Assembly: GCA_902605445.1 (NCBI GenBank)
Contig: CACLCL010000006.1
Location: 1-55,326 of the forward strand
Direction of reading: 5' to 3'
DNA length: 55,326 bases
DNA from: an uncultured Bacteroidota bacterium
Lineage (GTDB): Bacteria; Bacteroidota; Bacteroidia; Flavobacteriales; Flavobacteriaceae
How positions within the stretch are numbered: position 1 is the stretch's first letter; every line of letters begins with the position of its first letter. Below are positions 1 through 42,398 of the stretch, piece after piece. The position numbers and the translations under genes are program-made. The notes beneath the pieces were generated by a model. It saw only the letters and a list, made by a program, of their open reading frames with translations, was not told the DNA's origin and did no database searches.

Positions 1-517
1 GCCAGTCATAACTAACCAAAATGAAGTTTGATAAAAAACCAGCTAAAATTGCTCCTATTGGATAACCAGCTAAGATAAAACTGATCCAAAACTCTTTTGA
101 TTTAGATGGGGTGTATTCTGAAACCATTGAAACGGTTGTTGCGAGCATTGACCCAATTCCAAGACCTGAAAGAAATCTTAATATTACAACCTCATATAAA
201 GAACTGGATAGTGCGGTTATAATTACACTTAATGAAATTATAATTATCGAGATTAGAATTATTTTTCTTCTACCAATCTTATCCGCTAAAGGGGCTAAAA
301 TTAAAGCTCCTATGGCCATTCCTAAAACACCAGAGCTAAAAACTATTCCTAGTTCTTGGGATGAAAAGTTTATTGATGATGAAATAATCGGCGCAGTGTA
401 TGAAATTATCAACACATCCATACCATCAATTATATTCAGAAAAAAACAAATTAATATTATTTGATACTGATAATATCCTAGTGGAGAGTTTTCGATAATG
501 TTCTTTATGTTGTTCAC
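1..517 (-). CDS. MFS transporter, AAHS-like, N-terminal part (runs off window start)
   Basis: Partial gene; about 172 N-terminal residues are visible and the rest lies before base 1. It reads as a major facilitator superfamily transporter of the inner membrane. Several hydrophobic segments are separated by the loop LADKIGRRK, the MFS signature between helices 2 and 3, and the segment DGMDVLIISY in helix 1 resembles the aromatic-acid:H+ symporter group. The substrate cannot be told. I choose GTG at 517 because the matching frame has no ATG before the first helix; the start VNNIKNIIENSPLGYYQYQ suits a cytoplasmic N-terminus. It begins just after the terminator of tRNA-His, so it probably has its own promoter or depends on read-through. 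The opposite-strand frame at 111-464 is only its shadow. Confidence 0.8.
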   Translation of the reverse strand, partial: MNNIKNIIENSPLGYYQYQIILICFFLNIIDGMDVLIISYTAPIISSSINFSSQELGIVFSSGVLGMAIGALILAPLADKIGRRKIILISIIIISLSVIITALSSSLYEVVILRFLSGLGIGSMLATTVSMVSEYTPSKSKEFWISFILAGYPIGAILAGFLSNFILVSYDW

Positions 518-520
518 AAG

Positions 521-550
521 AAAAAAATAAACCCCCAAAAAATTGGGGGT
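521..550 (-). terminator. Rho-independent terminator of tRNA-His
   Basis: Bases 531-550 form a perfect 8-bp stem (acccccaa / ttgggggt) with a four-base loop. On the minus strand it is followed by a T-rich tract (530-521). It lies 9 bases after the tRNA-His 3' end. Confidence 0.85.
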
Positions 551-558
551 GATTATTG

Positions 559-633
559 GGTGGAAGACCGGATTCGAACCGGCGACTTTCTGAACCACAA
601 TCAGACGCTCTAACCAACTGAGCTACAACCACC
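559..633 (-). tRNA. tRNA-His (GTG anticodon)
   Basis: The minus strand folds into a cloverleaf: D stem GCTC/GAGC, anticodon stem TCTGA/TCAGA with loop TTGTGGT (anticodon GTG), and T arm GCCGG-TTCGAAT-CCGGT. An extra 5' G (base 633) opposite C73 is the G-1 identity element of tRNA-His. The CCA tail is not fully encoded. The acceptor stem shows U5 opposite U68 and U6 opposite U67, an unpaired tandem in an otherwise normal stem. A protein frame read across this region (426-635) is an artefact of the tRNA. Confidence 0.96.
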
Positions 634-645
634 ATTATTGGTATG

Positions 646-676
646 CAAATGTAATTTTTTTGAATTTTTCAACAAA
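646..676 (-). promoter_or_regulatory. Bacteroidota sigma-A promoter of tRNA-His
   Basis: On the minus strand TTTG (676-673), a 19-base spacer and TACATTTG (653-646) match the Bacteroidota -33/-7 consensus exactly. The -7 box ends 12 bases before the tRNA 5' end. Confidence 0.75.
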
Positions 677-688
677 AAAAGTAGATAA

Positions 689-1414
689 TTAATTTAATTC
701 TGAAATACTTTCTGTAATCGGAAGTCTATTCGCTATAAAACCCTCGGCATAATCCACTCCAGTCAGTCTTCCTAAGTCCTTTGCTCTGTACTCTACACTT
801 TCTAGGAAGTTTTTTGTTGAAATTGGAGTATTGTCTTGATTTTTTTTATCTGAATCGTATAATTGAGACTTGTATGATTTCACAGCATTCAATTTAATAT
901 TGATAAAATCTGAAATATCAACAACAAAATCTGGCTTTAGATTATTCCATTGTATGTAATGATAAATATTTTTTGGTCTCCAGGGATGCTGTTCTTCATT
1001 ATCCACCCAAGTTGAAACTTTTTTCAGACCACTCAGAAAGCACGAATCAATAACTAGTTGAGCACCTTTAGGATGATCTATATGTCTGTCAGATGGAGCA
1101 TTACACAAAATAATTCCAGGTCTATATTTTCTTATCCTTTTTATTAATTCAATCTGATGCTCCTCATCATTCTTAAAAAAACCATCCCTAAAATGCATAT
1201 TTTCTCTAAAAGAAACATTTAGAATTTTAGAGGCTTTAGTAGACTCCTTAAACCTTATTTCTTTATTACCTCTTGTTCCGAGTTCACCCTGAGTTAAATC
1301 GATAATTCCAACAGACTTATTCATTGAAATTTCCTTTGCAATTGTACCTCCACAACCCAACTCGACATCATCTGGGTGAGAACCAATGGCCAATATATCA
1401 ATGTTATTTGTCAT
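689..1414 (-). CDS. bshB1: Bacillithiol biosynthesis deacetylase BshB1
   Basis: Zinc-dependent N-deacetylase of the LmbE/PIG-L fold. In bacillithiol synthesis it removes the acetyl group from N-acetylglucosaminyl-malate before cysteine is added. The 241-residue protein has the family length and both metal motifs: SHPDD at residues 12-16 and DRHIDHP at 109-115. This places the organism among bacillithiol rather than glutathione users, which matters for the peroxidase at 14180. Its ATG overlaps the stop of the upstream PLP enzyme by one base, so the two are co-transcribed and probably translationally coupled. Pairing with a sulfur amino-acid enzyme fits a shared link to cysteine supply (inference). 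Confidence 0.93.
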   Translation of the reverse strand: MTNNIDILAIGSHPDDVELGCGGTIAKEISMNKSVGIIDLTQGELGTRGNKEIRFKESTKASKILNVSFRENMHFRDGFFKNDEEHQIELIKRIRKYRPGIILCNAPSDRHIDHPKGAQLVIDSCFLSGLKKVSTWVDNEEQHPWRPKNIYHYIQWNNLKPDFVVDISDFINIKLNAVKSYKSQLYDSDKKNQDNTPISTKNFLESVEYRAKDLGRLTGVDYAEGFIANRLPITESISELN

Positions 1415-2571
1415 TATTTACAATTATTAAATGCCTGTTCAATATCATAGTTAATATCTTCAATATCTTCGATACCAACAGAAAATCTTATTAAATTGTC
1501 AACTATACCCTGATTAATTCTATCTTCTTTTCTTAATAAGTAATGTGATGTTTTAGAAGGAGAAAGCATTGTACTTTCAACACCGGCAAAGCTCATCGTA
1601 GGGCTAATCATTTTCAAAGATTTTAAAAATAATTTAGGATTAAATTTTTTATTTAACTCAAATGAAATGACAGCGCCAAAACCATCCATTTGTTTTTTTG
1701 CTATATCGTGGTTTTCATGTCCAGTTAAGCCAGGATAGTAAACTCTGTCAATATTTTTATTTTCTTGTAAAACCTGTGAAAGTTTCATTGCATTTTTTTG
1801 CTGCGTAAAAAATCTAACTGAGAGTGTTTTCATACTTCTTTCAAGTAACCAAGTTGTATAGTCACTTAAACTACCACCCATATTTTTTGAAAGACTCCAA
1901 ATCTTATTAATATGCTCGGTACTTGCAGCGACAGCACCGGCACAAATATCACTATGACCCCCAAAGTACTTTGTAGCACTATGCATAACAACATCTATTC
2001 CTAAATTGTGGGGTCTTTGTATTAAGGGAGTAGCAAAAGTATTATCAATAAAAGAGATTAGCCCGTGACTTTTTGAAAGCTCAGCAATTTTTTTAATATC
2101 CACAATTTTTAGTAATGGATTTGATGGTGTTTCAATAAAAATTGCTTTAGTATTTGATTTAATCTCTTTTTCAAACTCTTCTATTCCAATACCTTTTGTA
2201 AAAGAATATTCAATTTTGTATCTGGTAAACTGTTTTTCTATAAGATTCCTTGTTCCACCATAAATATCATTTTGAACAACAATGTGATCACCCGATCCTA
2301 AAAAAGAAAGTAAGGATGTACTTATCGCAGCCATGCCAGAACCTAAAATAATTGCATGCTCAGTTTGTTCTAGTGCAGAAATCTTTTTTGACAAAAATTC
2401 TTGATTTGGAGTTGAACTATATCTTGGGTATCTGTCAATTTCTTTGTCAATATATTCGTAAGAAGTACCTGGAAATATTGGTGATACTGAACTACCAAAT
2501 TGTTCATCTTTAACTTGTCCTACGTGAGTGCAAATTGTATTAACCCCTTTAAATTTTTTGGTATCAGACAT
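1414..2571 (-). CDS. Cystathionine gamma-synthase/gamma-lyase family PLP enzyme
   Basis: A 385-residue fold-type I PLP enzyme of the Cys/Met metabolism family. The PLP lysine is K201 in SATKYFGGH, and D176 in FIDNTFATP is the expected pyridine-ring aspartate. The N-terminal YPRYSSTPN loop carries the tyrosine and arginine that contact the phosphate from the neighbouring subunit. Members make cystathionine (MetB) or split it or related thioethers (MGL/CTH); sequence reading alone does not separate these, so no symbol is given. It is upstream of bshB1 with a one-base overlap, and 11 bases downstream of ccsBA. Confidence 0.9.
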   Translation of the reverse strand: MSDTKKFKGVNTICTHVGQVKDEQFGSSVSPIFPGTSYEYIDKEIDRYPRYSSTPNQEFLSKKISALEQTEHAIILGSGMAAISTSLLSFLGSGDHIVVQNDIYGGTRNLIEKQFTRYKIEYSFTKGIGIEEFEKEIKSNTKAIFIETPSNPLLKIVDIKKIAELSKSHGLISFIDNTFATPLIQRPHNLGIDVVMHSATKYFGGHSDICAGAVAASTEHINKIWSLSKNMGGSLSDYTTWLLERSMKTLSVRFFTQQKNAMKLSQVLQENKNIDRVYYPGLTGHENHDIAKKQMDGFGAVISFELNKKFNPKLFLKSLKMISPTMSFAGVESTMLSPSKTSHYLLRKEDRINQGIVDNLIRFSVGIEDIEDINYDIEQAFNNCK

Positions 2572-2582
2572 TACAGTCTAAT

Positions 2583-5500
2583 TTAACGATTATTTTTTAG
2601 AAATTTATTGTATTTAGGATACGCTAATAAAGATAAAATTAAAATTATTGCAAGAGCTGAGCCTATGAATACTAGGCTTATTTCTTGATCGTCTTTAGCA
2701 TAAGAGTGTAATCCAGCAAGATAAAAATTGACTCCAAAGTACGTCATAATAATCGATCCAAATGATAATATTGAAGCTACTGTAAAAGTAAAATTACTTT
2801 TTAGTCCGGGAATTAATCTCATATGAATAACAAATGCATAAATAATAATACTTATTAAAGCCCAAGTTTCTTTCGGGTCCCATCCCCAGTACCTGCCCCA
2901 ACTTTCATTTGCCCACATACCACCAAGGAAATTACCTATTGTTAGCATAACTAAACCAATTGTCATAGACATTTCATTAATTAGCACCAATTCTTTAATA
3001 TTAATATTTAAAAGAGCCTCATTCTTTTTATTAACAAGTATCATGAGTATTAATGATACTAAACCGAGTATCATGCTAATTGTAAAAGGGCCATAACTAC
3101 CCACAATTACAGCCACGTGAATCATAAGCCAATAACTGTCAAGAACCGGAACAAGGTTTGCAATTGCAGGATCCATCCAGCTCCAGTGAGCAATCATCAA
3201 AATCATAGATGTCACAAAAGTTGTCGATGCAAGTGTTAGTTCACTCTTTTTTCCAAAATATATACCAAATAACATAGTTGCCCATGCAACATAAATCATT
3301 GACTCATAACCATCACTCCAGGGGGCATGACCTGAAATATACCATCTAGATATTAATCCCAACGCATGGATTGAAAAAAGAATATAGATAGAGTACTTTG
3401 ATAGTTTAATTATTGTGTCAACAAACTTATTTCGATTGAATATTTGAAAAATTAAAGCAATAAATAATAATGTACTTGCATATAAATACCAGCTAAAAAG
3501 ACTTTTAAAAATATCATATTTATTATAAAGAATTTCAGCATTTACCTTGTTTTCTGATAACATAACATTTGTACCATATTTTTTCTGAAATCCTGTAATT
3601 ACCCCAAGAAGGTCATCAGCAATTTTATAATCACCACTTTTTTTACCCATATTCAGATGGTATATGTACGCCTTAAGTCCATTTTTTATAAAATCTGAAT
3701 AGATTGAATCAGATATCATAAATGCATTAACTTTATGTTCATGGGTTGTTATCCATTTATCATTTTCATCATCAGGAATTGGGAAAATCTTTAATGTAAA
3801 GCCTTCAATAGCGTTGTATAATAAGTTTACACGCTGATCTGTCTCTCTAAATTCTTTTTGAAATGCATTTGGTATAGCAGCCCTGTAAGCCTCCTCAAGA
3901 AATGGAGCTAATTTGTATTCACCAGTCTCAGTAAAAAACTTTTTTAGTGGTACATGTTTTGCTTTGTCTGAAACACCAATTATACTTCTAATTGAATCAG
4001 CTTTTTTACTTTTTAAGAAGACTATTGGCATCTCAAGCCATATTCTGGGGTCTTCTTGCATTGATAAATAAACCTGATTTGCATTAAATTCATTGTAGTG
4101 ATCTTTTTTGCTGACTTTTCTCAGTAGTTCAGATGAATAAGTGTTGATAGGCATCATTCTTCCGCCCAAGTCCTGTATAACCAGTTTACCAAACTTATCT
4201 GCCTGTTCTTTAGAGGGAATGTTTTTGGATAAAATAGAGTCAAAATATTTAATATTTGATAAACCATTTGAGTGTGTAAAACTGTCTTGTGAAAAAGAGT
4301 TAATTGAAAATAAAAAAATTAAAAAAGTTAAAATTCTTGATTTATTAACTCGAGCTATTTCAAGCTGTTTTTTTAGTGAATCAAATCTTGTGAATCTTGC
4401 AAATAGAATAACAATGAGTCCAATGTAAAGTAATATATAACCGATGTAAGTTAGTAAGGTTCCCCAAAAATCATAATTTACTGATAAAATTGTTCCTTTT
4501 TCATCTGGATCAAAAGAGGCTTGAAAAAATCTATATCCTTGATAGTTAAGGATATTGTTCATATAAATTCTATAATCAAAATTTTCTTTATCTAAGACAG
4601 TTACTTCACTTGCAAATGAGGCATAGCTTTTTTCTGTTCCAGGATATTTTTCAGCAATAAAATCATTCAACTTTATACTGAATGGTAAATCATAAATTTT
4701 TGATCCATATCTAATAGTAAAATCCTGACTACCTACCCTGAAGGTTTTGTAGGGATTATTGACTCCTTTACCTCCAATAACACTAACTATCTTTGTTTCA
4801 TTTGGGGTTGTAATCTGTAATCTTACTCCATCCTGATCAGATTTTAATAATTCTGATTTTTTTACAATATCAAAGTTTCCTTTTATAACTGGATTTGGAA
4901 AAACCAATTGCATGTTGTTAATGATATATCTTGCTCTTAAGTTCAATGGGACATTTGTTCCTTTTTCTAGGAATCCTTGACTCATGGATGCCATAACTAA
5001 ATATTCAGCATCAAAAGGAGAGTTTATGTATAAATTGAAATCTTCATCATATGAAATGTTGACTGCACCATCTATAAAATTGTTGAGTGTGTACAAAACA
5101 CCATGAATATTTTCGGCTGAACCATCTTTTAAAAAATGGTTATGAGGCATACCTCCAGAGGACTCAACAATCTTTAAATAGTATTCACCATTTTCATCAA
5201 AAACAATGTTTTCCTCTGCACCATTGATGAACTCAGTTAACTTTATAGAAATAGGAGCTCCACCATATTCGGTGCTCAAATAAAATTTATTATTCATTCT
5301 TGGTGAAAAATCCACTACCAAATCATTGTACGCCTTCCTCATTGTCTGACCATCAATTTGAAAATCACCATCAATGTAAATATCTAAATAGGTTTTTTCA
5401 GAAAGAAAAGCACTTTCAGTTTCACCCTCACGAATGCTCATGACACCTTCATAACTAATATATCTGGTTATAAACGCACCAATAAGAATAAAAATCCAAG

Positions 5501-5759
5501 ATAAATGAAGCATTAATACAGGCCATTTTCTTTTTGAAAGCAAGTTGTATTTAAATATATTACCAATAAAATTTATCACAAACAATAACATTATCAATTC
5601 AAACCACCAGGCATTGTAAATGACATTTCTTGTTAAAGGGGTTGGTGATGTTTCTTGTCCGGCATCTAAAAAAGTACCGATAGCCATCGCAATTGCAAAT
5701 ACAATAAATAAAATGCCGGTTAGACGGTTAGAAAAAAGTATTTTTTTTATAATATTCAT
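2583..5759 (-). CDS. ccsBA: Cytochrome c biogenesis protein CcsBA (fused ResB-CcsA)
   Basis: System II cytochrome c synthase, a single large inner-membrane protein that exports heme and attaches it to apocytochromes on the periplasmic side. The 1058-residue chain starts with a ResB-like half (four membrane helices and a large periplasmic domain to about residue 700) and ends with a CcsA half. The heme-handling WWD segment WGRYWGWDPKETW lies near residues 955-967, with conserved histidines in MIHVAVIVG, GHAPWSDG and GLHSYA. The frame is open to a GTG at 5798, but I choose ATG 5759 (MNIIKKILFSNRL) because it starts directly before the first helix and a promoter -7 box lies inside the longer version. 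The stop falls 11 bases before the next gene. Confidence 0.93.
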   Translation of the reverse strand: MNIIKKILFSNRLTGILFIVFAIAMAIGTFLDAGQETSPTPLTRNVIYNAWWFELIMLLFVINFIGNIFKYNLLSKRKWPVLMLHLSWIFILIGAFITRYISYEGVMSIREGETESAFLSEKTYLDIYIDGDFQIDGQTMRKAYNDLVVDFSPRMNNKFYLSTEYGGAPISIKLTEFINGAEENIVFDENGEYYLKIVESSGGMPHNHFLKDGSAENIHGVLYTLNNFIDGAVNISYDEDFNLYINSPFDAEYLVMASMSQGFLEKGTNVPLNLRARYIINNMQLVFPNPVIKGNFDIVKKSELLKSDQDGVRLQITTPNETKIVSVIGGKGVNNPYKTFRVGSQDFTIRYGSKIYDLPFSIKLNDFIAEKYPGTEKSYASFASEVTVLDKENFDYRIYMNNILNYQGYRFFQASFDPDEKGTILSVNYDFWGTLLTYIGYILLYIGLIVILFARFTRFDSLKKQLEIARVNKSRILTFLIFLFSINSFSQDSFTHSNGLSNIKYFDSILSKNIPSKEQADKFGKLVIQDLGGRMMPINTYSSELLRKVSKKDHYNEFNANQVYLSMQEDPRIWLEMPIVFLKSKKADSIRSIIGVSDKAKHVPLKKFFTETGEYKLAPFLEEAYRAAIPNAFQKEFRETDQRVNLLYNAIEGFTLKIFPIPDDENDKWITTHEHKVNAFMISDSIYSDFIKNGLKAYIYHLNMGKKSGDYKIADDLLGVITGFQKKYGTNVMLSENKVNAEILYNKYDIFKSLFSWYLYASTLLFIALIFQIFNRNKFVDTIIKLSKYSIYILFSIHALGLISRWYISGHAPWSDGYESMIYVAWATMLFGIYFGKKSELTLASTTFVTSMILMIAHWSWMDPAIANLVPVLDSYWLMIHVAVIVGSYGPFTISMILGLVSLILMILVNKKNEALLNINIKELVLINEMSMTIGLVMLTIGNFLGGMWANESWGRYWGWDPKETWALISIIIYAFVIHMRLIPGLKSNFTFTVASILSFGSIIMTYFGVNFYLAGLHSYAKDDQEISLVFIGSALAIILILSLLAYPKYNKFLKNNR

Positions 5760-5777
5760 TATGAGCAAATGGAAATG

Positions 5778-5785
5778 CAAATTTA
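5778..5785 (-). promoter_or_regulatory. Putative -7 box of ccsBA
   Basis: The minus strand reads TAAATTTG followed by C, matching TAnnTTTG, 18 bases before the chosen ATG at 5759. I see no convincing -33 TTTG at the right distance, so this rests on the -7 match and its position. Confidence 0.4.
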
Positions 5786-5854
5786 ATACCATTTTCACTT
5801 AAATTGTACCTATTTAAATTATTTATTTGTAAATTTTGAATAATGATTTAATCT

Positions 5855-6601
5855 ATGCTAAAAGTTTCGGTAATTGGTTCAGGAAATGTTGGTTTTCATT
5901 TTATAAATTTATTTCATAATTCGGAAAAAATTCAGCTTTGTGAATGGTACTCTCGTAACTTAAAGTTTGACAAACGAGTTACGGTAATAAATGATATAAG
6001 TATTTTAAGTGAATCAGATATATACATTATTTGTGTTAACGATGATTCAATTTCCAAAATTAGCGACAGACTTAAATTTAGAAATAGACTTGTTGTTCAT
6101 ACTTCTGGAAGTAACTCATATAAAAAGATTAATATAAAAAATCGCCGTGGTGTATTTTATCCTTTGCAAACATTTAGTAAAACCAGAAATTTAAATTATT
6201 CTGAAATTCCTTTCTGTATTGAGGCAGAAAAAAATGCGGACAGAAATCTACTCATAAACTTGACCAAAAGAATAGGTTGCAAATGTTATGAAATTGATTT
6301 CAATCAAAGAAAAACATTACATTTAGCTGCTGTAATCACCAACAACTTTACAAACTTTTTATTTATTCTTGCAAAAGAATTTTTGAATAATAAAAATTTA
6401 GATTTTGAAATTTTGAAGCCTTTGATAAAAGAAACGGTTAATAAAATTCATAAATTAGAACCCGAAAAGGCACAAACTGGTCCTGCAAAAAGAAAAGACT
6501 TTAATACAATTAATATGCATCTTAAAATGTTGGATGAGGACAAAACTAGAGAGCTTTACAAAATTATAAGTGAAATGATAACTAGTAAATATGAAAACTA
6601 A
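5855..6601 (+). CDS. DUF2520 / Rossmann-like oxidoreductase family protein
   Basis: A 248-residue protein with an N-terminal dinucleotide-binding fold (GSGNVG at residues 8-13, after a beta strand) and a C-terminal helical DUF2520 domain, distantly like NADP-dependent pyrroline-5-carboxylate or ketopantoate reductases. The substrate is unknown. HTSGS near residue 84 and the helix around HLAAVITNNF are typical of the family. Its stop overlaps the kdsC start by 11 bases. In Flavobacteriia this gene commonly precedes the KdsC phosphatase, which suggests but does not prove an envelope-related role. Confidence 0.85.
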   Translation: MLKVSVIGSGNVGFHFINLFHNSEKIQLCEWYSRNLKFDKRVTVINDISILSESDIYIICVNDDSISKISDRLKFRNRLVVHTSGSNSYKKINIKNRRGVFYPLQTFSKTRNLNYSEIPFCIEAEKNADRNLLINLTKRIGCKCYEIDFNQRKTLHLAAVITNNFTNFLFILAKEFLNNKNLDFEILKPLIKETVNKIHKLEPEKAQTGPAKRKDFNTINMHLKMLDEDKTRELYKIISEMITSKYEN

Positions 6602-7094
6602 TTACAAAGAAAAACTGATTAATATCAAGGCATTTATTTTTGATGTTGACGGAGTATTAACAGACGGAAGCCTTCTTGTAAATGAAAATGGCGAATTATT
6701 AAGAACAATGAATGTCAAAGATGGTTATGCAATGAAACATGCAATCAACAAAGGTTTTATTATTGGTATAATTTCAGGTGGAACAAACCAAGCTGTGAAA
6801 TTAAGATTAAAAAACTTAGGTATTGAAGACGTACATTTAAAATCATATGATAAAATTATTCATTTCAATAATTTTAGGGATAAACACAACCTGAATAACG
6901 AAGACATTTTAGTGATGGGTGATGATCTACCTGATATTCCAATAATCAAAGCAGCTGGTTTAGGATGCTGTCCACAAGATGCCGCACCAGAGGTCAAATC
7001 AATTTGTGATTACGTTTCTCAAGATTTTGGAGGTAAGGGCTGCGTTAGAGATATTATTGAGCAAGTCATGAAAATTCATAATAAATGGACATAA
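6591..7094 (+). CDS. kdsC: 3-deoxy-D-manno-octulosonate 8-phosphate phosphatase (KdsC-type HAD)
   Basis: A small HAD-superfamily phosphatase without a cap domain (167 residues, the usual KdsC length). It releases phosphate from KDO-8-phosphate to give KDO for lipopolysaccharide. The nucleophile motif is FDVDGVLTDG with D18 and D20, and the late motif is GDDLPDIP with aspartates at 111-112. ISGG near residue 62 is motif II. A homologous reaction on related sugar acids (KDN/NeuNAc phosphate) cannot be excluded. It overlaps the DUF2520 gene by 11 bases and its last 10 bases overlap a possible small membrane ORF. Confidence 0.9.
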   Translation: MKTNYKEKLINIKAFIFDVDGVLTDGSLLVNENGELLRTMNVKDGYAMKHAINKGFIIGIISGGTNQAVKLRLKNLGIEDVHLKSYDKIIHFNNFRDKHNLNNEDILVMGDDLPDIPIIKAAGLGCCPQDAAPEVKSICDYVSQDFGGKGCVRDIIEQVMKIHNKWT

Positions 7095-7186
7095 ATAAAA
7101 ATAAGTGGTTAAAAGAATATAGTATCCTGCTTTTTATAAATCTAATATATTTTGTGATTTTTTTATTAATCACAATAAAATACTAA
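7085..7186 (+). CDS. Possible 33-residue single-helix membrane protein
   Basis: A short open frame starting with ATG inside the end of kdsC and stopping one base before the symporter ATG at 7188. The first 12 residues are polar and lysine-rich (MDINKNKWLKEY), followed by a continuous hydrophobic segment of about 19 residues (SILLFINLIYFVIFLLITI), so it would make an N-in, one-pass membrane peptide. The exact packing between two real genes, with an overlap on one side and one base on the other, argues for a real coding sequence. I recognise no family. The inverted repeat at 7152-7175 lies in its second half. Confidence 0.5.
   Translation: MDINKNKWLKEYSILLFINLIYFVIFLLITIKY
7152..7175. repeat. 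Inverted repeat upstream of the symporter start
   Basis: Perfect 8-base arms (ttgtgatt at 7152-7159 and aatcacaa at 7168-7175) flank an 8-base loop, ending 12 bases before the ATG at 7188. There is no T tract, so it is not an obvious terminator. It may be chance in AT-rich DNA or an RNA hairpin near the start codon. Confidence 0.4.
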
Positions 7187-7187
7187 T

Positions 7188-8873
7188 ATGAACAATATTG
7201 ATTGGTTTGTATTAATATTTACACTTTTGGTAATAGTTGTTTATGGAACAATTAAAACAAAAGGTGCCAAAACAGCAAGGGAATATATCAAAGCAGGTAA
7301 TGATGCGAAATGGTGGACAATTGGTTTGTCCGTGATGGCTACTCAAGCAAGTGCAATAACTTTTTTATCAACACCAGGACAAGCATTTAATGATGGTCTT
7401 GGTTTTGTACAATTCTATTTTGGTTTGCCGATTGCTGTTGTTATTGTTTGTTTAATTTTCATACCAATTTATCACAAATTAAAAGTTTACACCGCATATG
7501 AATTTCTAGAAAAAAGGTTTGATTTAAAAACAAGATCGTTAACAGCAATCCTTTTTTTAATTCAAAGATCTCTTTCAGCTGGGATAACAATTTTTGCTCC
7601 CTCAATCATACTATCTACAGTCCTTGGGTGGAACTTAATTTGGACTAATATTATAATTGGATTATTAGTAATAATTTACACAGTTTCTGGTGGCACTAAA
7701 GCGGTTAATTATACTCAAAAATATCAAATGGGTATTATACTTATAGGTCTAATTATTGTTTTTGTTACTGTAATAAATTTATTTCCTGAAAATATAAGTT
7801 TTAAAAAAGCCATTGAAATCGCATCCACTAATTCAAAGATGGAAATTTTAAACTTTTCATTTGATTTTGAAAATAGATATACCGTATGGAGTGGAATTAT
7901 TGGTGGTACATTTTTGATGATGTCATATTTTGGAACTGATCAAAGTCAAGTCCAAAGATATCTTTCAGGAAAATCGCTAAGAGAAATGCAGTTAGGTATG
8001 ATATTTAATGGAATTTTAAAAATACCAATGCAGTTTTTTATACTTTTTATTGGAATAATGGTTTTTGTTTTTTATCAGTTTTCAGCTTCTCCACTAAATT
8101 TCAATCCACAGGCTGAAAAAATTGTTTCTCAATCAAGTTTTAGTGAAAATTATAATTCTTTAAAAATTGATCTAAAAAATAACTTTGATAAAAAAATGTT
8201 TCTTTATAATGAATTTCTGAATTCAAAAAATATAGAGACAAAAAAACAAATTATAAATCTAAATAAGAAAGAAGATGAATTAAGAAAAGAAGGGAAATCA
8301 CTTATTAAAAAAGCAGGAATTGAAAAAAATGTTAGGGTTGAAACAAATGATAAAGATTATATTTTTATAAATTTTATTTTAAACAACTTACCAAATGGAA
8401 TAATTGGTTTGCTTCTAGCAGTTATACTAAGTGCTGCGATGTCCTCAACATCAAGCGAAATTAATGCTTTGGCTACAACAAGTGTTGTTGATATACTCAA
8501 AAGAAATTTTTCATATATCAATGATGACAATATTGTTTATTACACCAAATTAATGACGTTTTTTTGGGGTATTTGTGCAATTACAATTGCATCTTTTGCA
8601 TATTTAGCTGATAATCTTATCCAATTAGTAAATATAATAGGTTCTATTTTTTATGGTAATGTACTTGGCATTTTTATGATAGCCTTTTTCTTTAAAAAAC
8701 TAAAATCTAATTCAGTTTTTTTTGGGGCTATAATTACCCAACTAATTATAATCTATGCTTGGTTTTTTGATTGGATGCCCTTTTTGTGGTTAAATGTATT
8801 TGGCTGTTTTACTGTTATTTTTATTTCAAATTTAATAAACAGATTTAAGCTTTTTGGTCCACTTAGAAATTGA
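7188..8873 (+). CDS. Sodium:solute symporter family protein
   Basis: A 561-residue inner-membrane transporter of the SSS family, driving solute uptake with sodium. At least 12 hydrophobic segments are visible. Characteristic stretches are TQASAITFLSTPGQAF near residue 60 and AVILSAAMSSTSSEINALAT around residue 420, the latter holding the Na+ site serines. Between about residues 300 and 390 a hydrophilic, lysine-rich, probably helical insertion separates two helices, a feature seen in Bacteroidota SSS members. The substrate is not predictable. Its last 42 bases overlap the convergent DUF2911 gene. Confidence 0.88.
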   Translation: MNNIDWFVLIFTLLVIVVYGTIKTKGAKTAREYIKAGNDAKWWTIGLSVMATQASAITFLSTPGQAFNDGLGFVQFYFGLPIAVVIVCLIFIPIYHKLKVYTAYEFLEKRFDLKTRSLTAILFLIQRSLSAGITIFAPSIILSTVLGWNLIWTNIIIGLLVIIYTVSGGTKAVNYTQKYQMGIILIGLIIVFVTVINLFPENISFKKAIEIASTNSKMEILNFSFDFENRYTVWSGIIGGTFLMMSYFGTDQSQVQRYLSGKSLREMQLGMIFNGILKIPMQFFILFIGIMVFVFYQFSASPLNFNPQAEKIVSQSSFSENYNSLKIDLKNNFDKKMFLYNEFLNSKNIETKKQIINLNKKEDELRKEGKSLIKKAGIEKNVRVETNDKDYIFINFILNNLPNGIIGLLLAVILSAAMSSTSSEINALATTSVVDILKRNFSYINDDNIVYYTKLMTFFWGICAITIASFAYLADNLIQLVNIIGSIFYGNVLGIFMIAFFFKKLKSNSVFFGAIITQLIIIYAWFFDWMPFLWLNVFGCFTVIFISNLINRFKLFGPLRN

Positions 8874-22920: not shown

Positions 22921-23373
22921 TTATTTTTTATCAGGAACTACCTCAAATGATAAGTCTACTAAAACTTCTCGGTGCAGTCTAATTTTCGCGTTGTATTTAC
23001 CTAATTGCTTGATGTTATTACCAGCAAGTAAAATTATTTTTTTATCAACCATAACTCCGTTAGATTCGAGTTCTTTTTGAATATTTATATTATTAACAGA
23101 GCCGAATAATTTGCTTCCCTCACCAACTTTGGCTTTTATCTTTAATTCCAAATCGGTAATCTTCTTGGCTAACTTATTTGCATCATCAATTATTTTCTTG
23201 TCCTTGACTGCCTGCTGTTTGATATTTTCAGCAAGAACCTTTTTAGCTGATGATGTAGCTAAAATTGCAGAACCATTCGGAATAAGAAAATTTCTAGCAT
23301 AACCATTTTTAACAGTTACTAGGTCATCTTTAAAACCTACTCCTTCAATATCTTTTTTTAATATTATTTCCAT
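22921..23373 (-). CDS. rplI: 50S ribosomal protein L9
   Basis: Ribosomal protein binding 23S rRNA at the base of the L1 stalk. The 150-residue chain has the standard L9 plan: N-terminal domain with VGFKDDLVTVKNGYARNFLIP, a long connecting helix, and a C-terminal domain ending in LSFEVVPDKK. It is the last gene of the S6-S18-L9 operon, 9 bases after rpsR, and is followed by a terminator. Confidence 0.97.
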   Translation of the reverse strand: MEIILKKDIEGVGFKDDLVTVKNGYARNFLIPNGSAILATSSAKKVLAENIKQQAVKDKKIIDDANKLAKKITDLELKIKAKVGEGSKLFGSVNNINIQKELESNGVMVDKKIILLAGNNIKQLGKYNAKIRLHREVLVDLSFEVVPDKK

Positions 23374-23382
23374 AAAAAATAT

Positions 23383-23679
23383 TTATTTTAATAAATCAGC
23401 CACATAAGGCAATAGTGCTAGATGTCTTGCTCTTTTGACTGCAACTGAAACCTTTCTTTGATATTTCAAAGAGGTGCCCGTAATTCTTCTGGGTAAAAGC
23501 TTGCCTTGTTCATTTACAAATTTTAATAAAAAATTAGAATCCTTGTAATCAATATACTTTATTCCATATTTCTTAAATCTACAATATTTTTTTACTGTAC
23601 TTTGATCAATATCTAATGGAGTTAAATATCTAATTTCTGCACTTTTCTTACCCGATGCTTCTTCTTGGATACTTGCCAT
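23383..23679 (-). CDS. rpsR: 30S ribosomal protein S18
   Basis: A 98-residue S18 that pairs with S6 on the platform of the small subunit. The core block [21 protein letters not shown] is slightly divergent, and the C-terminal [20 protein letters not shown] is typical. It starts two bases after the true S6 stop at 23682, confirming that the S6 frame is meant to continue to there. Confidence 0.96.
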
Positions 23680-23681
23680 AA

Positions 23682-24024
23682 CTAAGATTCTTTTGTATTA
23701 ATTTTACTTCTTCTTTTTTCTGCCCATTCCACTCCGTACTTATCTAATTTTACGGTTAAATATCTCATAAATCTTTCATCTCTTCTAAATTCAAGTTCTA
23801 AATCGGAAATTATTTCAGGATTTACGGTATATTCAAAAAGGTGATAAAAACCACTTTTTTTTATTTTGGATTGGGTATGCTAACTTCTTCAAACCCCAAT
23901 CCTCCTTCGAAATCATTTTAGCACCTTTAGATGTTAAAAATTTTTCATATTTGAGGACTGTTTCCTTTGTCTGCTCTTCAGACAAAACGGGATTTAAAAT
24001 GAAAACAGTTTCATAGTGATTCAT
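23682..24024 (-). CDS. rpsF: 30S ribosomal protein S6, interrupted by a +1 frameshift
   Basis: The first 56 or so residues ([18 protein letters not shown] to LAYPIQNKK) are normal S6, then the frame breaks after a run of eight A (minus strand, 23862-23855) and stops at codon 64. Removing one A lets the other frame continue [20 protein letters not shown], through [21 protein letters not shown], to a TAG at 23682, a standard S6 C-terminus of 113 residues in all. The total length of 343 bases equals 114 codons plus one. S6 is the platform partner of S18, encoded directly downstream. A base-calling or assembly error is the simplest cause; polymerase slippage on A8 could also rescue the protein. 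Confidence 0.93.
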
Positions 24025-24046
24025 AACTTATTTTTATTAATGCGTG

Positions 24047-24054
24047 CAAAAATA
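24047..24054 (-). promoter_or_regulatory. Putative -7 box of the rpsF operon
   Basis: The minus strand reads TATTTTTG followed by C, matching TAnnTTTG, 22 bases before the rpsF ATG. No good -33 box was seen. Confidence 0.4.
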
Positions 24055-24107
24055 TATAATTTAAACATCATTTGATAATTTTTTGTAGCAAAAATTTTAT
24101 CAATTAA

Positions 24108-26549
24108 TCAATTGGGGTCTACATCAACAATTACTTGTACAGCCCTGTAGTCGGGTATTAATTGGAATGTTTGTATATATTTCTTCATTATTAGCTTCAC
24201 CCCAGAGAGAGAGAAGTCATGTGGAATTTTAATCAATATATGTTTTTGATACTTATTTCTAACTCTTGAGATGTATGGGAATTCAGGGCCTAACAAATAT
24301 CCCTTAAAGTGATAGAATAGTTTATCAAATAGCCATTTTGAAGAATTGTTTACAACATTTAAATTTTTATGTTTGACTGTTAATTGAATTAGTTTTGAGA
24401 AGGGAGGGTATTTAAATTTTTCTCTGTCATTTATCTGAATTTGAAAAAATTTTTCGTAGTCACCATTTACAATTTGGTTCACCAATTTTGGGTTTGAATT
24501 ATATGTTTGTATGAAAACCTCTCCCCTTTCAGTTGCTCTTCCTGCTCTTCCTGCAACTTGTTGAACAAGTTGAAAACATCTTTCATTAGATCTAAAATCA
24601 GGAAAATTCATTGAACTTTCAAGATTCATAATGCCTACCAATTGAACATTTTTAAAATCTAAACCTTTAGTAATCATCTGCGTTCCAACCATTATGTCAA
24701 AATCTTTGTTTTCAAAAGAACTGATAATTTTTTTAAAGCTATTCTTTCCCCTTGTGGTATCATGGTCAAGCCGAACAATTCTAATTTTAGGAAATAGATT
24801 TTTAAGTTCAATTTCTATTTGCTCCGTACCTAAGCCTCTTGAAATAATATCACTGCTTCCACATTTAACACAATTGTCTTGAATATTTTCATGATATCCA
24901 CAATAATGGCACCTCAAAGATTTCTTTGAATAGTGGAATGTAAGAGAAACATCACAATTAATACACTTGGGGGTAAAACCACAACTATTACACTCTAATA
25001 CTGGAGAAAAACCTCTTCTATTTTGAAATATTATAACTTGTTTATTGTTTGAAACAACTTCTTTTATTTTAGCTAAGAGTGGTTCAGAAAAAAATCCATA
25101 CATTTTTCCTTCTTTAACCATATGCTTAATATCAATAATATTAATTTTTGGTAAAGGTGATTTTCTATATCTTTCATTTAATTCGACTAAACTAAACTTT
25201 TTAAGAGAAGTAGAGTTATAATAACTCTCAATGGAGGGGGTAGCTGTACCCATTAAAACATTTGATCTATGAAGCTTTGAAAGAACCAATGCAGAATCTC
25301 TTGCGTGATATCTTGGTGAAGGCTCAAATTGTTTGAATGATTGCTCATGTTCTTCGTCAATAATTATTAATTTTAGCCTACTGAAGGGGAGAAAAATTGC
25401 GGATCTTGCTCCTATTACAATTTGGTTGTTTTTGTTTTGGTTTATCTTAAACCACAATTCTGCTCTTTGATTTAAACTTAATGCTGAGTGGTAAACGAGT
25501 AAATTATCAGAAAAAAAATGACTTAATCTATCAACTAATTGTGTGGTTAAAGCAATTTCAGGGACCAGATATAAAATTTGATTTCCAGAATTCAAATATT
25601 GTTTGATCAGTGAAATGTAAATCTCTGTTTTGCCAGATGCGGTAACTCCTTTAAGTAAAACATTTTTATTTAAGTTAAAATTACTCTTTATTTCATTAAG
25701 AGCATATAACTGTTTTTCTGAGAGCTCTATTTTTTTTAATTTCTTTTTTGACTCAACAATATTCCTGCTAATTTCAAGATCATAAAACTCGAATATTTTT
25801 TTTTCAACCATTTTATTTAATATAGAATGATATGATTTATTAAGGTTCTTAAAATCAGAGATTTTAATATTTTTATTGGATTTTAATTTATTTTCTAAGA
25901 AATGATTATAAAATTTAATCTGATTTTTTGCGTTTTTTGGAATTGATAAAATTAAATCTTTATTGAAATTTTTTGATAATCTAACACAACGAATAAATTT
26001 TGGTGAATATTTTCCATAAATTTTTTCGTCTATTAAAATAAAGTTCTTCTCCCTCATTGAATTTATTATTGGAAAAATATTTTTTTTGCCAACTATTTCT
26101 GAAATTTCTTTGACAGATAAATGTTTTTTTATTTTTAGAGCATCTAAAATCAAATATTCAAGATCATCACAATTATTTTCATTTATTATTTGGTTTTGAT
26201 TTAAGCTAACTTCTGTTTCACTCTGAAGGACTAAATTGCTTGGTAAAGATGCTCTCATAATATCTCCAATTGGTGCGAAATAATATCTTGATATCCAGTC
26301 CCAAAAATTTAGCTGGAAATTGTTAACCATTGGCGTATTATCAATTATTTGAACAATAGATTTTAGTCTTATTGTATCATCATTATTTCTGTGTAATTTA
26401 AATGCAATTGAGGTATAAAGTTTTGTTTTACCAAATGGAACAATAATTCTCATTCCAGGCTTAATAAAATTAAATTCTTCCTCGGAAACTGAATATGTAA
26501 ATTTTTGATTTACAGGGATTGGCAAAATAACATCAACACAATGACACAT
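24108..26549 (-). CDS. priA: Primosomal protein N' (replication restart helicase PriA)
   Basis: An 813-residue superfamily 2 DNA helicase that reloads the replisome at stalled forks. The N-terminal DNA-binding domain starts VDVILPIPVNQKFTYSV; Walker A is GVTASGKTEIY near residue 303; the DEEH box is IIIDEEHEQSF; motif III is GTATPS. Eight cysteines in four CxxC pairs (CNSCGF, CINCD, CHYCG, CVKCGSSD) form the two zinc sites, all intact. QQVAGRAGRATERGEV is motif VI. It is preceded by an AT-rich spacer shared with the divergent rlmH. Confidence 0.96.
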   Translation of the reverse strand: MCHCVDVILPIPVNQKFTYSVSEEEFNFIKPGMRIIVPFGKTKLYTSIAFKLHRNNDDTIRLKSIVQIIDNTPMVNNFQLNFWDWISRYYFAPIGDIMRASLPSNLVLQSETEVSLNQNQIINENNCDDLEYLILDALKIKKHLSVKEISEIVGKKNIFPIINSMREKNFILIDEKIYGKYSPKFIRCVRLSKNFNKDLILSIPKNAKNQIKFYNHFLENKLKSNKNIKISDFKNLNKSYHSILNKMVEKKIFEFYDLEISRNIVESKKKLKKIELSEKQLYALNEIKSNFNLNKNVLLKGVTASGKTEIYISLIKQYLNSGNQILYLVPEIALTTQLVDRLSHFFSDNLLVYHSALSLNQRAELWFKINQNKNNQIVIGARSAIFLPFSRLKLIIIDEEHEQSFKQFEPSPRYHARDSALVLSKLHRSNVLMGTATPSIESYYNSTSLKKFSLVELNERYRKSPLPKINIIDIKHMVKEGKMYGFFSEPLLAKIKEVVSNNKQVIIFQNRRGFSPVLECNSCGFTPKCINCDVSLTFHYSKKSLRCHYCGYHENIQDNCVKCGSSDIISRGLGTEQIEIELKNLFPKIRIVRLDHDTTRGKNSFKKIISSFENKDFDIMVGTQMITKGLDFKNVQLVGIMNLESSMNFPDFRSNERCFQLVQQVAGRAGRATERGEVFIQTYNSNPKLVNQIVNGDYEKFFQIQINDREKFKYPPFSKLIQLTVKHKNLNVVNNSSKWLFDKLFYHFKGYLLGPEFPYISRVRNKYQKHILIKIPHDFSLSGVKLIMKKYIQTFQLIPDYRAVQVIVDVDPN

Positions 26550-41548: not shown

Positions 41549-41973
41549 AGATATCTTTTCATAGAAACACTATTTACCTTAAAACCACTCCTAGAATAAA
41601 AATTTATTAAATTTTCTTTGCAGAAAAGAGTAATTCTGTAACAATTATTTTTTTTACCAATTTCAATCAATTCATTAATTAATTTTACTCCAATCATTTT
41701 TCCTCTAACTTCTGTATCAACAACAATATCCTCTATGTGACCTGCTACTTCTCCCCTAATTTTATTTTCAATAATAATACTTCCATGTGCAATAATTTTA
41801 CTGTCAACAATACCAACAATTGAGTTAGAGCTATTATTTTGAATAAATTGATCCCATGAATTATCCAAATCAAGATCAGAGGTATCAATTTTTTTTAATT
41901 GATTCAACAATGCAAAGACATCATTTAAATCAGATTTTTTTATTTTTCTAAATGACACTTTGGACATAATCAT
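41545..41973 (-). CDS. GNAT family N-acetyltransferase
   Basis: A 142-residue GCN5-related acetyltransferase. VAGHIEDIVVDTEVRGKMIG carries the acetyl-CoA motif A (V-x-x-x-x-R-G-K-x-x-G), and FYSRSGFKVNSVSMKRYL the C-terminal motif B. It is most like glucosamine-phosphate N-acetyltransferases, but the substrate cannot be fixed. Start ATG 41973 or 41967 (two residues apart). Confidence 0.85.
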   Translation of the reverse strand: MIMSKVSFRKIKKSDLNDVFALLNQLKKIDTSDLDLDNSWDQFIQNNSSNSIVGIVDSKIIAHGSIIIENKIRGEVAGHIEDIVVDTEVRGKMIGVKLINELIEIGKKNNCYRITLFCKENLINFYSRSGFKVNSVSMKRYL

Positions 41974-42038
41974 AGAAGCTTAAGTTTAAATTTATGAAAA
42001 ACTTATGTTAAGAATGTAAAAAAAAAAATAAAACTTAA

Positions 42039-42293
42039 TTATTTCTTGCTAAACTTCGCATATTTGGTTTTGAACTTATCAATTCTTCCTGCAGTGTCAA
42101 CAAGTTTAGCTTTTCCTGTATAATAAGGGTGAGATGTTCTCGATATCTCTAATTTAATGAGAGGGTAATCGGTGCCTTCAACAGAAATTGTTTCATTAGA
42201 TTGTGCTGTAGATTTTGCTAAAAATATATCATTGTTGGACATATCCTTAAAAGCGACCAATCTATAATTATCTGGATGAATTCCTTTTTTCAT
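42039..42293 (-). CDS. rpmE2: 50S ribosomal protein L31, type B
   Basis: An 84-residue type B L31, lacking the zinc cysteines of the type A form. MKKGIHPDNYRLVAFKDMS and the segment SRTSHPYYTGKAKLVDTAGR are diagnostic. The ATG at 42293 is preferred over a TTG at 42299 because it gives the normal N-terminus and sits about 10 bases after the predicted transcription start. It is a single-gene unit. Confidence 0.96.
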   Translation of the reverse strand: MKKGIHPDNYRLVAFKDMSNNDIFLAKSTAQSNETISVEGTDYPLIKLEISRTSHPYYTGKAKLVDTAGRIDKFKTKYAKFSKK

Positions 42294-42310
42294 ATTCAAA
42301 AATTGATGTG

Positions 42311-42341
42311 CAAATTTATTGTTTTTTTAATACTTTGCAAT
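42311..42341 (-). promoter_or_regulatory. Promoter of rpmE2
   Basis: On the minus strand ATTG (42341-42338), a 19-base spacer and TAAATTTG (42318-42311): a good -7 box and a near-consensus -33 box, 18 bases before the start codon at 42293. Confidence 0.6.
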
Positions 42342-42398
42342 GAATGTAGCTTATTTTTTTAGAGCAACGTTTTTGTATATTTGAATAAAAACCAATTT

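Follow-up and report, generated by a model that had tools for sequence, protein, structure and literature searches.

A one-base insertion at an A8 run splits rpsF in a single draft Flavobacteriaceae genome

The gene for ribosomal protein S6 (rpsF) of an uncultured Flavobacteriaceae bacterium is split at a run of eight A by one base more than its congeners carry. None of the 14 congeners with an rpsF carries this extra base, and the sequence past the run is uneroded. Judging by these comparisons, the extra A is probably a technical error private to one draft genome, and the A8 run, as far as its sequence tells, is neither a programmed site nor a conserved feature. An error rather than a mutation of that cell is the most likely reading. 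An ancestral in-frame A7 (AAT AAA AAA AGT) would have become A8 in this one assembly by gaining a single A, most plausibly during genome amplification, homopolymer sequencing or the calling of an assembly consensus from thin coverage, and the cell itself would probably carry an ordinary 113-residue S6. The weights that we give in words to competing readings are matters of judgement, not computed values. As a caution, a homopolymer frame break in one draft needs relatives or reads before being called recoding.

The window, which is the whole analysed stretch of 55,326 nucleotides, has a GC content of ~29% and belongs to a draft genome of 1,023,817 bases in 49 contigs, with completeness estimated at 68%. 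By rpsR, the closest named records among the matches listed are Flavobacteriaceae or Bacteroidetes drafts, including NAT90 and AG-333-D18, each 92% identical over rpsR; these drafts are marine. The nearest congener is 84% identical across the 731-base locus; no other genome from this species turned up.

Reading frame of rpsF

The locus comprises the following features.

23833..24024, minus strand: rpsF as assembled (zero frame), 63 codons and a stop, in the S6 frame through codon 56 (IQNKK)
23855..23862, minus strand: A8 run at which the S6 frame is broken (T8 on the plus strand)
23682..23861, minus strand: rest of the S6 frame, stop-free up to the TAG at 23684-23682 and conserved with relatives
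23383..23679, minus strand: rpsR (S18), open, beginning 2 bases past the S6-frame stop
22921..23373, minus strand: rplI (L9), open, third in the operon

The plus strand at 23855-23862 reads TTTTTTTT, flanked by C and A, and forms the A8 of minus-strand rpsF. The ORF at 23833-24024 begins MNHYETVF, encodes 63 amino acids, with codon 64 a stop. From its entry at 23861, the S6 frame on the minus strand runs without a stop through 23685, ending SKINTKES, and is followed by TAG, then TT, and then the rpsR ATG at 23679. The 56 codons before the shift and the 57 after it give an S6 frame of 113. The preliminary description had followed the S6 frame to IQNKK and a stop at codon 64, had proposed that one A fewer would give a 113-residue S6 ending two bases before rpsR, and had called the neighbouring rpsR intact; its account of the break holds in every detail checked. 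The open frames of rpsR and rplI match the Pfam families S18 and L9, in the S6-S18-L9 operon order given in an excerpt of PMC10931766.

The S6 profile (PF01250) matches rpsF in two pieces lying in two frames, covering profile positions 1-55 (E 5.4e-16) and 50-90 (E 1.5e-7), with both pieces above the family cut-off, also when each is searched alone; as assembled, rpsF gave no full PF01250 match in a single frame. S6 proteins from eight relatives all span the break when aligned, in two frames and at 78-95% identity, and the two-frame pattern is therefore not a chance one.

rpsF in related genomes

The preliminary description had proposed comparing the run with rpsF of close relatives. A 113-codon rpsF is intact in all 14 congeners holding the locus, with A7 in 10, AAAAAG in four and A8 in none, and the frameshift is thus not kept in these related genomes; two members of other genera examined alongside them likewise have an intact gene. 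An exact search for A8 plus its fixed following bases, with zero mismatches, matched only the genome itself among 21 genomes of the genus, a search that misses variants (at least one congener, G019, differs there), so that the A8 count rests on the 14-congener comparison. No viral contig with the rpsF locus and exactly the same flanks was found.

In the S6 tree, built from 14 of the 15 rows (without G006, which contains an N), moderate support (84/99) places the window's gene beside G008, G011 and G019. All three of these neighbours carry A7, and A8 is thus best read as derived and private. The break is confined to one assembly, lies at a homopolymer and affects a gene intact elsewhere, a combination that a real private mutation would also show.

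Six of 20 congeners (G001, G005, G007, G013, G015 and G020) have no S6, and the same six also have no S18, which indicates that the locus is missing from those assemblies. With the gene intact in every congener holding the locus, and S6 and S18 absent together from the rest, lineage-wide S6 loss or recoding is rejected. Among 100 relatives, including the genome itself, an S6 match is present in 90, of which 88 are single and stop-free, one (G092) is split over two contigs and one, our own, is split in place; the 10 relatives with no match are all less than 90% complete. Among relatives with completeness of 90% or more and contamination of 5% or less, S6 was found in all 69.

Sequence past the run

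Over the tail past the run, the mean dN to the 14 congeners is 0.112, within the range of the congeners' own means (0.056-0.127), and third positions account for the majority of the differences in every one of the 14 pairs (17-25 of 26-45). The mean dS of 1.63 is the highest of the 15, dS means being rough. Both sets of means draw on all 15 rows, less codons containing N and pairs for which no value could be computed. The tail evolves like that of a live gene, with no decay seen, and an old pseudogene is rejected since its dN lies within the congeners' range. Such constraint downstream of the indel is also expected for an error or a very recent mutation; in sequence terms, the uneroded tail would fit an error, a very recent mutation or a rescue.

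The second of these would be a recent replication slippage from A7 to A8 in the cell or strain, unrescued, leaving S6 truncated and ribosomes without a working S6, which we consider unlikely while granting it real weight. The DNA is low in GC with plentiful A/T runs, the undecayed tail suits a very recent event, and a rare mutation would account for a single indel in 163 kb no less well than an error would. An rpsF knockout from an E. coli single-gene library is heat-sensitive and reported to show no significant change in growth at 37 °C (PMC3112155, excerpt); the existence of this knockout means that a true rpsF null need not be lethal. Against such a mutation stand the presence of S6 in all 69 near-complete relatives and the absence of transposon insertions from rpsF in E. 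coli, where an excerpt of a TraDIS study gives zero (PMC5821084). A null should also face counter-selection and rarely be sampled. By analogy with E. coli, life without S6 is perhaps feasible; a true null is conceivable and should be rare.

Homopolymer runs across the assembly

A scan for frame breaks took in the window and a further 300 kb of this genome, 355,326 bases in all, and set them against ORFs in stretches of DNA from eight relatives (G002 and G003 for the most part), counting matches of at least 50% identity; 192,568 of these bases had no comparable relative protein. The remaining 162,758 comparable bases hold 352 A/T runs of at least seven (222 of seven, 100 of eight, 25 of nine and five of ten) and a single frame break, the one in rpsF. 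No other break was found at the 351 further runs, 30 of them longer than eight, with a scan that detected 163 of 255 single-base insertions planted over four rounds (about two thirds) and may thus have missed others. The same scan found no break in G003 (173,077 comparable bases) or G002 (145,891). With a single break here and none in G003 or G002, there is no sign of a genome that habitually carries and corrects such breaks.

One break per 162,758 comparable bases does not support an indel-ridden assembly. Homopolymers this clean (one break in 352 runs) make any given run unlikely to be wrong, which leaves room for a true mutation. Homopolymer indel errors occur in draft single-cell or metagenome assemblies. 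The rpsF break resembles them in being private, of a single base, at a homopolymer, in a conserved gene and in an incomplete draft; it differs in that the compared part of this assembly yielded no second break. Indels in single-cell assemblies have been assessed (PMC5519541, excerpt).

Separately, positions 1-7914 of the window matched none of the proteins in the fetched relatives' stretches, which may simply not cover that region.

Possible recoding at the run

The preliminary description had left the choice between an error and slippage or frameshifting. Its first branch, widened to a private indel that is either an error or a fresh mutation, is favoured by the absence of A8 from the 14 congeners and by the one break in 352 runs, whereas nothing was found in support of transcriptional slippage or programmed frameshifting. 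Restoring S6 from the A8 sequence would require one A fewer (or two more) in the transcript, or a +1 or -2 ribosomal shift.

Under the first route, A8 would be a true allele whose frame is partly restored by an RNA polymerase that drops one A. This rescue is possible and disfavoured, and we judge the reading improbable. It draws on the position of the break exactly inside an A8, the low GC of the window, a gene otherwise conserved and a precedent in insect endosymbionts. Tamas and colleagues reportedly described, in 2008, frameshifts at poly-A runs of Buchnera and Blochmannia, accompanied by transcriptional slippage. A review gives 12-50% corrected transcripts at long poly-A runs in frameshifted endosymbiont genes (PMC5009743). 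Per Blochmannia genome, four to eight genes carry such frameshifts, and eight Blochmannia vafer genes may be slippage-corrected (PMC3017870). In Buchnera, more than half of single-base transcription deletions lie in homopolymers, at a rate that rises with run length (PMC5574713, excerpt).

The rpsF break shares with these cases a single indel in an A run, an AT-rich genome and a gene otherwise conserved. In the endosymbionts, however, some frameshifts are found again in other populations or species, each genome has several affected genes and transcript evidence exists (PMC3017870 and PMC5009743, excerpts), whereas the rpsF break is a DNA observation from one gene found in one assembly, with all 14 congeners that have an rpsF lacking it. 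That the scan found no break at the 351 further runs, including the 30 longer ones, also speaks against slippage, as does the direction required. To restore the frame, the transcript must end up one base shorter (or two longer), whereas in E. coli and Buchnera transcripts insertions prevail on A/T runs and deletions are less often homopolymer-linked, homopolymers holding 151 of 157 transcription insertions versus 16 of 57 deletions in Buchnera; the authors saw no frame-restoring transcription error (PMC5574713). Eight A is, moreover, short. In tssM1 of Citrobacter rodentium, an A run likewise precedes an early stop, but that slippery run is A11, works by adding A, and was shown by mass spectrometry, whereas rpsF has A8 and needs the opposite net change (PMC4256274, excerpt).

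The stronger version, in which a streamlined marine flavobacterium would have fixed the A8 rpsF and would depend for its S6 solely on a slipping RNA polymerase or a +1 shift of the ribosome, is in our estimate highly improbable. If true, a core ribosomal protein would be recoded in an organism other than the insect endosymbionts known for this kind of rescue; were reads and other cells to confirm A8, a non-endosymbiont ribosomal protein dependent on polymerase slippage would be unusual. Within a limited paper collection, no literature linking rpsF, frameshifting and a homopolymer was found.

A AAA AAG is a slippery heptamer (X XXY YYZ), and the zero-frame codons AAA AAA AAG at the rpsF run hold it in the -1 slippery phase, which would be the basis for programmed ribosomal frameshifting at A_AAA_AAG. 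A -1 shift here leads into a stop after 10 codons and not into the S6 extension, which needs +1 or -2, and in the 14 congeners no shift is called for. Programmed -1 frameshifting is rejected on the first of these grounds; programmed recoding of rpsF is not supported, and we give ribosomal frameshifting at this heptamer almost no credence. An Rfam search of 23300-24400, with E up to 1, returned no match, and an S6:S18-binding leader was not seen there.

The A8 run itself is ordinary for this DNA: ORFs of at least 90 codons in the window contain 50 A/T runs of eight or more, the longest of 10. Elsewhere in the window, an A11 run lies at 42018-42028, within the gap (41973-42381) between open frames.
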